From Candidatus Desantisiibacteriota bacterium (GTDB lineage: Bacteria > JACRDZ01), in assembly GCA_016209155.1 (NCBI GenBank), contig JACQWU010000039.1:1-12726 (forward strand): a stretch of DNA of 12,726 bases, written 5' to 3'. Positions 7,094 to 12,075 of the stretch are shown piece by piece; within the stretch, counting starts at the first letter, position 1, and each line of letters begins with the position of its first letter. The notes under the pieces were generated by a model that worked only from the letters and a program-made list of their open reading frames with translations, was not told the origin of the DNA and did no database searches. The translations under genes and the position numbers were made by a program.

Positions 7094-8104
7094 TCACAAA
7101 GTTCTTTTTTTGGTAATTGCATAAACAAATAGACTTCCGCCAAATATTCCTGTTATCACTCCGACAGGCAGTTCCAGAGGAGCAATTATTGTTCTCGCTA
7201 ATGTATCACATAGTATGAGAAAAATTGCACCGCACAGATATGAACATATTAAAAGAATTCTATTGTCATTTCCAACAAGCATTCTTGAAAAGTGGGGGAC
7301 AACGAGCCCGATAAAACCTATCATGCCGCATATTGAAACACTTAATCCTGTGAGAATTGAAGAGATTAAAAAGAGTAGTCTTTTTGTTGTTTCAGTATTA
7401 ATACCTAAATGCTGAGCATTGTCTTCTCCAAGTGAAAGTGCGTTCAAGCTAATACTAAGTGAATAAGAAGCCAGAAGTCCGATCACTGAAATTAATACAG
7501 AAATTTTTATAAGCAACCAATTTGGTTCTTCCAGAGAACCCATCATCCAGAAGATTATACCGCGAAGATCTTCTGCCCCGGACACCGCCATAATAAGCAT
7601 AACAAAAGATGATGATACAAAGCTGATCATAACTCCGGTTAATAAAACTTCATAAATTTTAAATAACCCCCTTTTTATATTTAAGAAATAAATTAGTATA
7701 ATTACCATTCCCGCACCTAAAATTCCCAAAACAGGCATTGACAGGATTCCGAATTTATTTGTAAGCTTAAAGGATATTCCAAGACAAACTCCTAATGCGG
7801 CTCCACCTGAAATCCCGAGAGTATATGGTTCAACCAGCGGATTTACAAACATTCCCTGAAGGATTACACCTGCAATGCTTAGCGCTCCTCCGATAGCAAA
7901 TCCCAGAATTATCCTTGGTAGCCGGATATCAAAAATAATACTCAGTTCTACGCCGGTATTTTTATCAAAAAAAAAAGATATTATTTTTCGCAAAGGAATT
8001 CCTGATGCACCGACACAGAGCGAAAAGATACCGGTACAAAGAAGGATAATAAAAAGAATCATTATCAATGTTATCCATTTAATTATTTTTTTATTTATTT
8101 GCAT
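7094..8104 (-). CDS. btuC: Corrinoid ABC transporter permease BtuC (FecCD family)
   Basis: This polytopic inner-membrane subunit acts as a dimer to form the translocation path for the corrinoid delivered by BtuF. The 336 residues match the usual length, and about ten membrane helices are expected from the family and from the hydrophobic runs. FecCD motifs are RLPRIILG (61-68), AGVILQGMFVNPLVEPYTLGISGGAALG (79-106), GMIGFIGLVVPHFSRMLVG in the C-terminal half, and LPVGVITGIFGGSLFVYAI near the end. The PH and GxxG elements lie at the ATPase coupling region in known structures. Its ATG (8102-8104) is inside the last codons of btuF (14-nt overlap), and btuD starts 7 nt after its stop. The three genes are therefore translationally coupled. 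Confidence 0.92.
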   Translation of the reverse strand: MQINKKIIKWITLIMILFIILLCTGIFSLCVGASGIPLRKIISFFFDKNTGVELSIIFDIRLPRIILGFAIGGALSIAGVILQGMFVNPLVEPYTLGISGGAALGVCLGISFKLTNKFGILSMPVLGILGAGMVIILIYFLNIKRGLFKIYEVLLTGVMISFVSSSFVMLIMAVSGAEDLRGIIFWMMGSLEEPNWLLIKISVLISVIGLLASYSLSISLNALSLGEDNAQHLGINTETTKRLLFLISSILTGLSVSICGMIGFIGLVVPHFSRMLVGNDNRILLICSYLCGAIFLILCDTLARTIIAPLELPVGVITGIFGGSLFVYAITKKRTL

Positions 8105-8933
8105 GATTGAATATCTCTACCAACTTTTTTAACGTTTCTACAAAGCTTACAGGTGTCGGGCTGCATAAACTGTAAGCATCAAGTATATAAATGCGTTTAT
8201 TCTCTACTGCATTTATAGTTTTATATTTGTTCCAGATATTTTTCTCATTTTCACTTATAATCCCCATGTTTATAATAATTATTACATCAGGATTCTGTCC
8301 AAGTACATCCTCACGGCTACATAAACCCGTTTCTGTTCTGGAATAAATATTAATGCCACCGGCAAATTCAATGAAATCATTAATAAATGAATCTTTTGTT
8401 ATAGTAAAAAGAGGTTTTGCTCCAAGTTGAATAAAAACTTTTGGTTTTGTTTGATGTTTAATGGTTTTTTTTATCAAATCAATTTCTATTTTTGTTTTTT
8501 TTATAATTTCTTCTGCAGTATCTTTTTCACCGGTTAAACTGCCCAGCTTAAGAAATTGACTGCAAAGTTCAGTGAAATTTTTAGCTTGAGGAAAATTTAT
8601 ATTTTTTATGCCAAGGTTGTTAAACTTTTCTTTTGCTTTAATGTTTGTTAAAGGTGTTGTTATTACTAAGTCAGATTTAAGACTCAATATTTTTTCTATA
8701 TTTACATCAATAACTGTTCCAACTTTTTCTTTCTTTTGTGCATCAGGCGGATTAAGACAATATGTTGTTACTCCTATAATTTTGTCCTGTGCGCCCAGAA
8801 GATAAAGCTGCTCAGTTATAGAAGGGCTAAGAGATATTATTCTTTCAGGATAGATATTTTTACTATATGCTATAGAATTAGTATATAATAAAAATAATAT
8901 AAGTAAGAATAATTTTATTTTACAATTTGACAT
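8091..8933 (-). CDS. btuF: Periplasmic corrinoid-binding protein BtuF
   Basis: This is the substrate-binding subunit of the B12 ABC importer, 280 residues. A Sec signal peptide covers about residues 5-24 (KIKLFLLILFLLYTNSIAYS). There is no lipobox, so it is probably soluble in the periplasm. The mature part has the helical-backbone Peripla_BP_2 pattern: RIISLSPSITEQLYLLGAQDKIIGVTTYC (31-59), VGTVIDVNIEKILSLKSDLVITT (71-93), and a second lobe with FIQLGAKPLFTI, DFIEFAGGINIY and QNPDVIIIINMG. The start at 8931-8933 has GGAAGGG about 10 nt upstream (8944-8950). It begins 112 nt after cobS, a gap holding a 58-nt cloverleaf repeat. Family members also bind heme or ferric siderophores. Corrinoid is inferred from the riboswitches, CobO and CobS. 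Confidence 0.88.
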   Translation of the reverse strand: MSNCKIKLFLLILFLLYTNSIAYSKNIYPERIISLSPSITEQLYLLGAQDKIIGVTTYCLNPPDAQKKEKVGTVIDVNIEKILSLKSDLVITTPLTNIKAKEKFNNLGIKNINFPQAKNFTELCSQFLKLGSLTGEKDTAEEIIKKTKIEIDLIKKTIKHQTKPKVFIQLGAKPLFTITKDSFINDFIEFAGGINIYSRTETGLCSREDVLGQNPDVIIIINMGIISENEKNIWNKYKTINAVENKRIYILDAYSLCSPTPVSFVETLKKLVEIFNHANK

Positions 8934-8967
8934 TGTATGTAATCCCTTCCGAAGTTGATTTACGATT

Positions 8968-9025
8968 TTGTAGGGGTTCGATTCATCGAACCCGCTAACG
9001 GGCTTGATGAATCAAGCCCCTACAA
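8968..9025. repeat. 58-nt palindromic repeat that folds as a complete four-helix cloverleaf
   Basis: The outer arms TTGTAGGGG (8968-8976) and CCCCTACAA (9017-9025) are perfectly complementary. Between them lie three adjoining perfect hairpins with no unpaired joints: TTCGAT-TC-ATCGAA (8977-8990), CCCG-CTAA-CGGG (8991-9002) and CTTGAT-GA-ATCAAG (9003-9016). The two halves can also pair as one 27-bp stem with four mismatches. It occupies the cobS-btuF gap and reads the same on both strands. I recognise the GTAGGGG...CCCCTAC ends as typical of dispersed intergenic repeats, without a database check. Confidence 0.8.
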
Positions 9026-9045
9026 TAAAAACATATGTTTATAAT

Positions 9046-9780
9046 TCATTTACGTAAAATTAATCCAATTAAAAGTATTACTACTTCTGCCATTTCGCTT
9101 ACTGCACCGATTGTATCACCTGTCATGCCATTAATTTTTTTCTTTATATAGGTTATTATAAGCAAAATAAAAATTGTAGATAAAGATAGCAATATAATTC
9201 CCCATATCCCTTTTAATAATAAAAAAATTGCAAAAGTAAAAACAGTTCCAATTAAAAATTCTTTTTTTCCGCAGTATTTAATGAAATTTTTCCCTTTCCC
9301 GTCTTTTCGCGCATAATCCGATGTAAAACATGAAAGAACCTGTGTCCATCTTGCAAATGTTGTCATAAGTATTAAATATTTCCATAAGTTTAACGGTAAA
9401 TAACTCACCAAAATCGAAAACTTTATGAGCATAAGAACAACAATCCCAATTATCCCCATAGCGCCGACATGGCTATCCCTCATAATTTCAAGAGATCTTT
9501 CTTTAGTCCTAAATCCATATAACCCATCACAGGTATCAATAAATCCATCCAGATGAATGGCACCTGTTATAATAACTGACAGCAAAATAATAATTGCCGC
9601 CATTACCATATTGGGGAGAAAGTTTGAAAATAAAGTAATAGAAGCGAGCAAGGCTCCTATAGCAAGTCCCACCAGAGGGAAATAAATTATAGATTTACCA
9701 AAATCAGCATCTTTTAATTCCGATTTGATTTTTATTGGCAATATAGTCAGAAATTGAAACGCAATTAAAAATAAAGTCAT
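9046..9780 (-). CDS. cobS: Adenosylcobinamide-GDP ribazoletransferase CobS
   Basis: This inner-membrane enzyme (cobalamin 5'-phosphate synthase, EC 2.7.8.26) joins adenosylcobinamide-GDP with alpha-ribazole (phosphate), the last assembly step for the nucleotide loop. The 244 residues match the family length. The acidic metal-binding motif HLDGFIDTCDGLYG (76-89) is present, followed by the conserved ERSLEIMRDSHVGAMG (94-109). GDTIGAVSEMAEVV near the C-terminus matches the family's second conserved region, and several membrane helices fill the rest. The start at 9778-9780 has AGAGGTG (9785-9791) about 4 nt upstream. It is the first gene after a B12 riboswitch with a terminator. CobU/CobY, CobT and CbiB, which supply its two substrates, are not in this window. 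Confidence 0.93.
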   Translation of the reverse strand: MTLFLIAFQFLTILPIKIKSELKDADFGKSIIYFPLVGLAIGALLASITLFSNFLPNMVMAAIIILLSVIITGAIHLDGFIDTCDGLYGFRTKERSLEIMRDSHVGAMGIIGIVVLMLIKFSILVSYLPLNLWKYLILMTTFARWTQVLSCFTSDYARKDGKGKNFIKYCGKKEFLIGTVFTFAIFLLLKGIWGIILLSLSTIFILLIITYIKKKINGMTGDTIGAVSEMAEVVILLIGLILRK

Positions 9781-10143: not shown

Positions 10144-10158
10144 CAGCAATTCCGCAAC
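10144..10158 (+). repeat. Left terminal inverted repeat of the insertion sequence
   Basis: CAGCAATTCCGCAAC is a perfect inverted complement of 12061-12075. The similarity stops after 15 bp. Confidence 0.93.
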
Positions 10159-10344
10159 GGAATTAAAAAAATCAATAAAACATAAGGTATTATAAGGGAA
10201 TTATGGATTTTTTAACAATATAAATAAATCATGCAAATTCTCGAGGGTAATTTTAATGGTTTTTCTATCTTCAGGAGACACTGATGGCGGCGATTTTTTT
10301 AGATTTAAAACTAGGATATATAAATCAATAAATCAATATTTTAT

Positions 10345-11583
10345 TTATGTGGCAGGCAGAGGAACAAGCCATATTGCGACAAAATTGCAAGATGCAAGAG
10401 AAGTAAGAAATTGTATTGCAATAGAAATAAGTGAAAATTTGGAACGTAGCTGTGGTTTTATATTTAATTTATGGAAACTTTGTATTAACACAAAAGCAAT
10501 AAATAACGTAAGTAAAAAATTGATAATAGCATTTGGCTCATGTTTAAAACAATGATTCATATCCCAATGATTACCTAAATCATTAAAAAGATCATTTTCA
10601 ATATCCCATCTATCATGACCGGCTTGCCATAATAATTTTGTTGGTAATATATATGATGGTATAGTTGTTGCCCACCACCAATTATGTTCTTCTAACTCTT
10701 CAACCCATTCATTACCTTTTCGTCTACGTTTTATTTCTTTTTCTTCTGAATGCAAAACGCGTATTTTTTTATTAACTCCATCCATGCTCTCAAATCCTTC
10801 GCAGTCCCATATTTTTGCAGTTAAATTTTTTTCTTTTAAAATTATCGGTTTCATTGTCTTAAATATACCTTCTGCGTCTTGCATTAAAATACGTCTTTCA
10901 CTTTTTAAAACTGCAATAACATGTTTTTTATGTTTAATACAAAAATTAAAAAAAGGCGCTTCAAGATAAAGACCATCGCCTACTATGCCATCAAAAAATT
11001 TGGAATAATTTTTAAATACTCTTTCTATCAATCGTTTACCGGCAATAACTTCTCCTTCTCCAGGTTGTATAGGTTCAACATCAAGCGGCAATGCTAAATC
11101 AAATCCTATTAAGTGGCAGGCTACCACTCTGTGATAATATTCAATAACTTCTTCATCGTTAACTGTAATCTTTCGTGTAAGACATTTATCGCAACATCGA
11201 CAACGGCTGCTGAATAATTCATGTCCATCTATAGCTACAAAGCGCATTGGCCAATTTGTTTTAAGTCTTTTATTCCTTTTAAGTTTATGATTTATTTTAC
11301 ATAAAAAATTTCTAATATTATCTGTATCCATTTTTGTGAATACCCTTCCAATACTATCTCCGCTTGGTTTCCTTTTACCTATCAGCTTCTCCATTCGTTT
11401 TGGTAAATGTAGTTCTGTATCAACCGCGTTAAGTGAGCTTAACCGTAATACAAACATAAACATCCCACTTAACCAAATACTTTTTGTAGGAATTTCCGGT
11501 AATTCTCTATTATCTTTTATGTTTTGGATTTCTTTCCCAAAATTAAATACCTTATTAATGTAATCGCAAAATCTTTTAATCAT
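10345..11583 (-). CDS. DDE transposase of the insertion sequence (IS4-like superfamily)
   Basis: This 412-residue enzyme cuts and joins the element's ends through an RNase H-like DDE active site. Proposed catalytic residues are D119 (RFVAIDGHEL), D203 (IVGDGLYLEA) and E329 in RWDIENDLFNDL. The last fits the R-x-x-x-E arrangement of IS4-type enzymes, with HCFKHEPNAI following. A cysteine cluster C128, C130, C131 and C134 (SRCRCCDKC) lies just after the first Asp and may bind zinc. Residues about 35-90 form a helical N-terminal DNA-binding region with RKPSGDSIGRVF. The ATG (11581-11583) overlaps the end of the upstream small gene (ATGATTAA), suggesting translational coupling. The frame is intact to its stop. 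I cannot assign a named IS family. Confidence 0.88.
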   Translation of the reverse strand: MIKRFCDYINKVFNFGKEIQNIKDNRELPEIPTKSIWLSGMFMFVLRLSSLNAVDTELHLPKRMEKLIGKRKPSGDSIGRVFTKMDTDNIRNFLCKINHKLKRNKRLKTNWPMRFVAIDGHELFSSRCRCCDKCLTRKITVNDEEVIEYYHRVVACHLIGFDLALPLDVEPIQPGEGEVIAGKRLIERVFKNYSKFFDGIVGDGLYLEAPFFNFCIKHKKHVIAVLKSERRILMQDAEGIFKTMKPIILKEKNLTAKIWDCEGFESMDGVNKKIRVLHSEEKEIKRRRKGNEWVEELEEHNWWWATTIPSYILPTKLLWQAGHDRWDIENDLFNDLGNHWDMNHCFKHEPNAIINFLLTLFIAFVLIQSFHKLNIKPQLRSKFSLISIAIQFLTSLASCNFVAIWLVPLPAT

Positions 11584-11917
11584 TTTGTTTTGTATTTTTT
11601 AATTTTATTAAACGATTAATATGATAATCAGAAATAATATCTATCGAATTCATAATGTCCTTATATGTTTTTACCCAAGAGTGGATATCTTTTTCAAATT
11701 GCTTAGGAACACAGACCATTTTTCTTTTTCCTTCATGTTTAATAGATAGATATGTGGAAAGATGTTTTTCCCCGGTAGTACATTTGCATTGTGGTTTCCC
11801 GCACTTACGACCACTTGTTACCACACCTCCTTTAACAAATGGGTAATAATTAACAAGCTTGGTTAATTTTGAACGTGCATCTCTTTCCTTCTGTGGAATG
11901 AAATTTTTATTCTTCAT
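11576..11917 (-). CDS. Small DUF6788-like protein encoded in the insertion sequence
   Basis: The 113 residues include a Cys motif SGRKCGKPQCKC (C39, C44, C46), followed by TGEKHLSTYLSIKHEGKRKMVCVPKQ and a helical, coiled-coil-like tail (residues about 70-108). This layout matches the DUF6788 type, often found next to transposase genes. The function is unknown, and a zinc-dependent DNA-binding or accessory role is only inferred. The start at 11915-11917 has AAAGGAGAT about 8 nt upstream. It is the first gene of the element's transcript and couples to the transposase through an 8-nt overlap. Confidence 0.8.
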   Translation of the reverse strand: MKNKNFIPQKERDARSKLTKLVNYYPFVKGGVVTSGRKCGKPQCKCTTGEKHLSTYLSIKHEGKRKMVCVPKQFEKDIHSWVKTYKDIMNSIDIISDYHINRLIKLKNTKQND

Positions 11918-11930
11918 TTTTGATATCTCC

Positions 11931-11958
11931 TTTCTTACATTCTATATTATGTAAGAAA
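11931..11958 (-). promoter_or_regulatory. Hairpin overlapping the insertion sequence promoter and ribosome binding site
   Basis: The 10-bp perfect arms TTTCTTACAT (11931-11940) and ATGTAAGAAA (11949-11958) enclose an 8-nt loop. The 3' arm in the RNA ends exactly at the GGAG of the first gene's ribosome binding site, and the arms straddle the -10 box. A transcript from the element's own promoter would start near 11939 and lack the 5' arm. A read-through transcript would contain the full hairpin. Confidence 0.7.
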
Positions 11959-11974
11959 ATAATCAAAAAGTCAA
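11946..11974 (-). promoter_or_regulatory. Promoter of the insertion sequence genes
   Basis: On the - strand, TTGACT (11969-11974), a 17-nt spacer and CATAAT (11946-11951) each match the consensus at 5 of 6 positions. The start point would be near 11939, giving a leader of roughly 20 nt before the ATG at 11917. Confidence 0.7.
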
Positions 11975-12060
11975 GCAAATAATGAATGCGAATTTGCTTT
12001 TTTTTTAATTAAAGTCAGAAGTGATGAATTTTATTGGGTTTTTTTATATATTTTGTTTTT

Positions 12061-12075
12061 GTTGCGGAATTGCTG
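12061..12075 (-). repeat. Right terminal inverted repeat of the insertion sequence
   Basis: GTTGCGGAATTGCTG is the exact inverted complement of the left end. It contains an outward-facing TTGCTG (12070-12075). Confidence 0.93.

Follow-up and report, generated by a model that had tools for sequence, protein, structure and literature searches.

The 58-nt element at positions 8968-9025 of the window (the whole 12,726-nt stretch of DNA analysed here) belongs to the GTAG REP superfamily as a heterodimeric BIME/REPIN, a known kind of element of which this is a new family member in poorly known hosts. We are fairly confident that it is non-autonomous mobile DNA, a head-to-head (HH) heterodimer of GTAG REP hairpins that arose when a REP-RAYT-REP transposon (REPtron) lost its transposase gene through deletion. 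As the same hairpins flank RAYT genes in other genomes, where RAYT remnants and minimal dimers are also found, the element is best read as an internally deleted derivative of such a transposon. A previous reading of the sequence alone had offered two possibilities, a mobile REP- or MITE-like substrate of a Y1 transposase or an RNA function between cobS and btuF, and the first of them is supported by the dispersed copies, the covarying stems and the presence of the same REPs beside RAYT genes elsewhere.

Structure and conserved form of the element

As shown in Table 1, the element has two halves and a spacer, and reads TT, GTAGGGGTTCGATTCATCGAACCC, GCTAAC, GGGCTTGATGAATCAAGCCCCTAC and AA. Positions 8970-9023 thus hold two 24-nt units, each made of GTAG and a 20-nt perfect palindrome, which are inverted with GTAG outermost and separated by 6 nt. 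After GTAG both units follow the formula GGG NNN GAT TC ATC N'N'N' CCC, in such a way that half A reads GTAGGGG-TTC-GATTCATC-GAA-CCC and half B, on the opposite strand, GTAGGGG-CTT-GATTCATC-AAG-CCC. Stem types are named here by their three variable stem positions (e.g., TTC, CTT, TCG). In both halves the 5' GTAG is followed directly by a palindrome with a short loop, as is characteristic of the GTAG REP superfamily.

Table 1. Location of the element, of its neighbours in the window and of related features elsewhere in the same genome (G000; C, contig; L, locus).
Feature	Location	Strand	Basis or remark
Complete heterodimeric HH REP pair (BIME/REPIN) with its GTAG tags outermost	8968-9025		outer helix TTGTAGGGG/CCCCTACAA
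REP half A, GTAG + perfect palindrome GGGTTCGAT-TC-ATCGAACCC	8970-8993	+	exact pattern match G000:C303:8970-8993
Spacer GCTAAC	8994-8999		variants in G000 and relatives; not conserved
REP half B, GTAG + perfect palindrome GGGCTTGAT-TC-ATCAAGCCC, inverted relative to half A	9000-9023	-	exact pattern match on the - strand
btuF-like periplasmic binding protein	8091-8933	-	Pfam Peripla_BP_2, E=6.7e-30
cobS (cobalamin-5-phosphate synthase)	9046-9780	-	Pfam CobS, E=2.6e-56
Cobalamin riboswitch RF00174	9877-10050	-	92.9 bits; upstream of cobS
RAYT genes with other-stem GTAG REPs on both sides, the pair different in each	L013 (C89), L014 (C106), L011 (C349)		G000
Nested dimers, examples	C174:4351, C84:6965, C163:7800, C53:450, C70:5217, C95:12, others		G000; loci L046, L048, L049, L051, L053, L055

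The region 8960-9033 folds far more strongly than expected by chance, with z = -7.0 as DNA and z = -10.0 as RNA and none of 200 shuffles equalling it; the 58-nt sequence and its palindromes are also as first described. The four-helix cloverleaf proposed in that description is a possible fold, but not the one of lowest energy. As DNA, the calculated energies were -19.8 kcal/mol for a long rod, -16.8 for the cloverleaf and -16.3 for two separate hairpins, so that the three forms lie within 3.5 kcal/mol, the rod having the lowest energy and the cloverleaf a small advantage over the hairpin pair; as RNA they were -38.4, -24.8 and -26.1 kcal/mol, respectively. The 2-nt loops of the perfect cloverleaf drawing become 4-nt loops in the folding model, and its middle hairpin is formed by the spacer GCTAAC together with the adjoining CCC/GGG. 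Among the copies in G000 and its relatives, the spacer differs in sequence and can be as short as about 1 nt or as long as 57 nt.

Two stem pairs distinguish the halves, T-A being replaced by C-G and C-G by T-A. This compensatory variation (TTCGAT/ATCGAA versus CTTGAT/ATCAAG), already pointed out from the sequence alone, is real, and it keeps the pairing within each hairpin while breaking it between hairpins, which favours the view that selection acts on two separate hairpins. Covariation was measured in 317 sites picked by their left arm alone (GTAGGGGNNNGATTY), a sample that includes related copies, so the counts are not independent. In 285 of these sites all three variable positions of the right arm were complementary to the left, and 897 of 951 cells were paired, whereas 1000 shuffles gave a mean of 510 and never more than 560. 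The stem types that recur with their own complements number at least seven (TTC, CTT, TCG, TTT, GCG, CGC, CTC). The palindrome is maintained by compensatory change, as is also characteristic of the GTAG REP superfamily. Of the three inner helices whose covariation the sequence-only reading had proposed to test, the two REP hairpins keep their pairing and the middle helix varies with the spacer. Since the spacer, and with it the middle helix, is variable and the stems covary, the constrained unit, and the conserved object, is a single hairpin with its GTAG tag and not the four-helix cloverleaf.

Copies of the element and its setting between cobS and btuF

The element is not single in the window's genome (3.08 Mb, 79% complete), in which 38 BLAST matches at E<=0.001 were detected, together with 49 half-sites of GTAGGGGNNNGATTYATC compared with 0 for a reversed-pattern control. 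There are also 22 distinct neighbouring pairs, 20 of them HH and 2 tail-to-tail (TT), the inverted REP pair thus being the repeated unit, as in BIMEs and REPINs. Most of the scorable copies in this genome (21/24) lie outside ORFs, and 16 of the 24 are between co-directional genes.

Half-sites were also counted in other genomes, with 9-10 in each of two members of the same phylum and 54, often tail-to-tail, in a distant one (G058; record L182, MAG CSMAG_2693). At least 118 stretches of other GTDB genomes contain the exact TTC-stem 24-mer, with hosts in Omnitrophota, Atribacterota, WOR-3, Desulfobacteraceae, Auribacterota, Zixibacteria and others, in such a way that one hairpin sequence is common to many uncultured phyla; this distribution could be due in part to convergence or old inheritance. 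A plasmid search gave no match to the element, and viral contigs matched in only 4 stretches, so phages are no obvious carrier. Two genomes of one genus (G001 and G003, around 80-85% identical in the regions compared) share one dimer at the same site, with the REP arms unchanged and the spacer changed, and a second dimer is present only in G001, the corresponding site of G003 being occupied by a different insert. This comparison shows turnover of dimers, but not the clean empty site that the sequence-only reading had suggested looking for.

Around ten dimers of the window's genome are nested in a larger palindromic repeat whose ends resemble AAATTTCCCATCTTGA...TCAAGATGGGAAATTT, and some of these have a still wider repeat, GAAGGTGTGAAAAAATTGA...TCAATTTTTTCACACCTTC (examples in Table 1); no clean case of the outer palindromic repeat without a dimer inside was found. 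Nested repeats of a comparable kind have been reported for other REP families. Separately, other GC-rich palindromic elements seem to be inserted in or beside the REP hairpin loop at L286 1404-1470, L166 1254-1345 and L231 730-825, leaving REP halves on both sides.

In the window, the element occupies the intercistronic gap downstream of cobS, the btuF-like gene being next downstream. The riboswitch heads a co-directional run of cobS, the btuF-like gene, a FecCD-type permease, an ABC ATPase, CobO/BtuR and a TonB-dependent receptor. An IS-like unit at 10144-12075 lies just upstream of the riboswitch, and its 38-nt imperfect terminal inverted repeats (CAGCAATTCCGCAAC...) enclose a DDE_Tnp_1 transposase and a DUF6788 ORF. 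The riboswitch was the sole match in an Rfam scan of the window. A tRNA or other known RNA was ruled out at the element by scans without a match, and an intrinsic terminator by a terminator scan that found none.

It is conceivable, though unlikely, that this copy now acts mainly as RNA, as a stable transcript hairpin that keeps 3' exonucleases from degrading the upstream cobS message or uncouples the expression of cobS and btuF, a role that was earlier proposed for enterobacterial REPs. The high stability of the element as RNA (-38 kcal/mol), its position in an apparently riboswitch-led, co-directional cobalamin operon and the share of copies between co-directional genes are in favour of such a role. 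However, the element is dispersed in unrelated contexts and is not specific to this operon, the cobS loci of the same-phylum relatives G001, G003 and G002 do not have it (synteny differs there), the differences between the halves weaken the rod, which would be the best RNA-protecting form, and a terminator signal is absent. As the copies spread over many unrelated intergenic regions, the dedicated RNA function first suggested for the cobS-btuF gap is not required.

RAYT units bearing the same hairpins

Mobility of the element as DNA is the reading favoured by the RAYT genes that carry the same REPs in other genomes. The same REP as half A flanks the RAYT in L285 and L277, and a CTT-type REP, the type of half B, adjoins a RAYT remnant in L281. 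The REP-RAYT-REP units measure 471 bp in L285, with an intact 180-aa ORF, 471 bp in L277, with one in-frame stop, and 514 bp in L286, in which another palindrome is inserted in the 3' (RE) REP; in all three, one end is a TTC REP. The first of these units is thus intact, and the other two are decayed. The REP is translated in frame as VGVRFIEP, the N terminus of the RAYT protein. HUH (MPTHLH) and tyrosine (NYYEHVIRNE) motifs are present in the proteins, which score just above the cut-off for Y1_Tnp and below that of the NCBI REP_Tyr_transpos model (66.8 and 67.2 vs 80 bits); their best PDB match is E. coli TnpArep 4er8 (E=3e-6). Another RAYT (P0001, from G058), with TTC-type REPs on both sides, was first taken as the cognate one, but L285, L277 and L286 are preferred because their paired ends match local dimers. 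The TAG stop codon of P0001 is the TAG of the neighbouring REP's GTAG tag (L131 1421-1444).

Shorter units, with remnants of RAYTs between the same two ends, were found in L297 (188 bp), L303 (228 bp), L281 (194 bp), L350 (145 bp) and L266 (143 bp), the one in L281 being from Omnitrophota and ending in CTT and TTC. The polarity is not uniform, the TTC REP being at the RAYT 5' end in L285, L277 and L303 but on the 3' side of the L281 remnant. These internally deleted remnants (143-228 bp) and dimers of around 50-66 bp occur in the same genomes as the full units or in related ones. In RS_17_14, a WOR-3 genome, the spacers of the shortest dimers include, for example, GCAAAAGAAAC, which, to judge from its letters, appears to join the left-end inner flank of L286 (GCAAA) to its right-end flank (AGAAAC); the dimer spacer GCAAA/AGAAAC in L161 corresponds to the inner flanks of L286. 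Although single REPs are also present in the window's genome (e.g., in C285 and C288) and several variants lie close together in C60, it is very improbable that the dimers are two independent REP insertions facing each other by chance instead of one transposon-derived unit, since short fixed spacers and partners nearly always inverted and nearly always unequal are unexpected for random neighbours, and intermediates with RAYT remnants exist.

The window's genome has six Y1_Tnp loci. A search with PF01797, with P0001 and with a profile of L285 and L286 did not find a cognate RAYT in this assembly, which breaks at repeats; the RAYTs examined have either REPs of other types, as do those with readable flanks (L011, L013, L014, L142), or none. 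Three of the six loci (L011, L013, L014) have GTAG REPs of other stems on both sides and so follow the usual pattern of one RAYT with one REP. The REPs of L013 are situated inside a methyltransferase-like coding region. The Y1 transposase that the sequence-only reading had anticipated is thus found with the same REPs in other genomes, but not as a cognate gene in this one, and our claim is therefore of derivation from, and likeness to, REPtrons and not of a demonstrated working pair. The responsible RAYT was presumably lost or is missing from the assembly, and the dimers of this genome probably arose by the same deletion route as elsewhere.

By analogy with published work on other REPtrons (PMC8266576), each REP would fold separately in single-stranded DNA, for example on the lagging-strand template, and a RAYT (HUH/Y1, TnpAREP-type) acting in trans would recognise the hairpin and its GTAG guide, nick nearby and move the REP pair as one unit. 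The halves would be unlike because one comes from the left end of the parent element and the other from its right end, and the difference between them would also cut their mutual complementarity and so weaken the long rod.

Unequal halves and known systems

Inverted neighbours had different stems in 22/22 cases in the window's genome and in 98/99 in other, named genomes (120/121 overall), the latter set having been found via the TTC half, so that it tests TTC partners only, and including dimers copied as units, which are not independent. Direct neighbours were unequal in 2/6 cases and identical in 4/6. The REPs flanking RAYT genes differ in 15 of the 18 listed loci (L293 counted twice). The near-universal inequality of inverted dimers suggests that each dimer unites the parent transposon's left end with its right end, and the existence of several partner types in different lineages indicates that the rule exceeds a single event. 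We tentatively propose, at somewhat less than even chances, that a dimer is one left end plus one right end of a REP-RAYT-REP element, that the RAYT needs one of each, and that the partner types (CTT, TCG, CGC, GCG) mark distinct RAYT lineages sharing the TTC end across phyla.

A preference for heterodimers was noted by Di Nocera et al. (PMC3733652), whose text gives it "no obvious explanation" and suggests an escape from palindrome-cleaving enzymes. It is possible, though less likely than not, that the halves stay unequal not as transposon ends but as a safeguard against the deletion to which a perfect 50-bp palindrome would be prone (SbcCD-type cleavage, replication stalling). Besides that published suggestion, this view agrees with direct repeats being allowed to be identical and inverted ones not, but the REPs flanking RAYTs, 500-800 bp apart and forming no long uninterrupted palindrome, mostly differ too. 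Both origins may account for the inequality, and the derivation from left and right ends provides a testable answer to this unexplained preference.

Compared with the GTAG REP superfamily heterodimers of Di Nocera et al. (2013), as their text describes them, the element shares the GTAG tag, the perfect short palindrome and the head-to-head arrangement of unequal stems; both are intergenic, mostly between co-directional genes, and some dimers in that description also lie inside longer palindromes, as the nested copies do here. GTAGGGG does not appear in the paper's text, which names no candidate-phylum hosts. With the REPINs of Bertels and Rainey (2011; PMC3116915) it shares the REP doublet as replicative unit and the association with RAYTs, and alternative rod and "clover" folds were already described there; the Pseudomonas doublets, however, are symmetrical with compensation across the rod, whereas here the halves differ and compensation takes place within each half. 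IS200/IS605 elements and their MITEs have in common with it the hairpin ends in single strands, the 5' guide tetranucleotide and the Y1 transposase, but the ends here are GTAG REPs, and matches to the transpos_IS200 model are weak and below its cut-off.

With REPtrons (Nunvar et al. 2010, PMC2817692; PMC8266576), the units found here share a RAYT gene between inverted cognate REPs that co-vary with it, and an HUH/Y1 transposase related to E. coli TnpAREP (4er8). They differ in being compact (471 bp), in the translation of the REP within the ORF and in the graded internal deletions leading to dimers. The element of the window most likely descends from a RAYT transposon as a non-autonomous derivative. 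Mobile DNA of this kind is ordinary, but the present family offers an unusually complete series from the full element through partial deletions to the minimal dimer.
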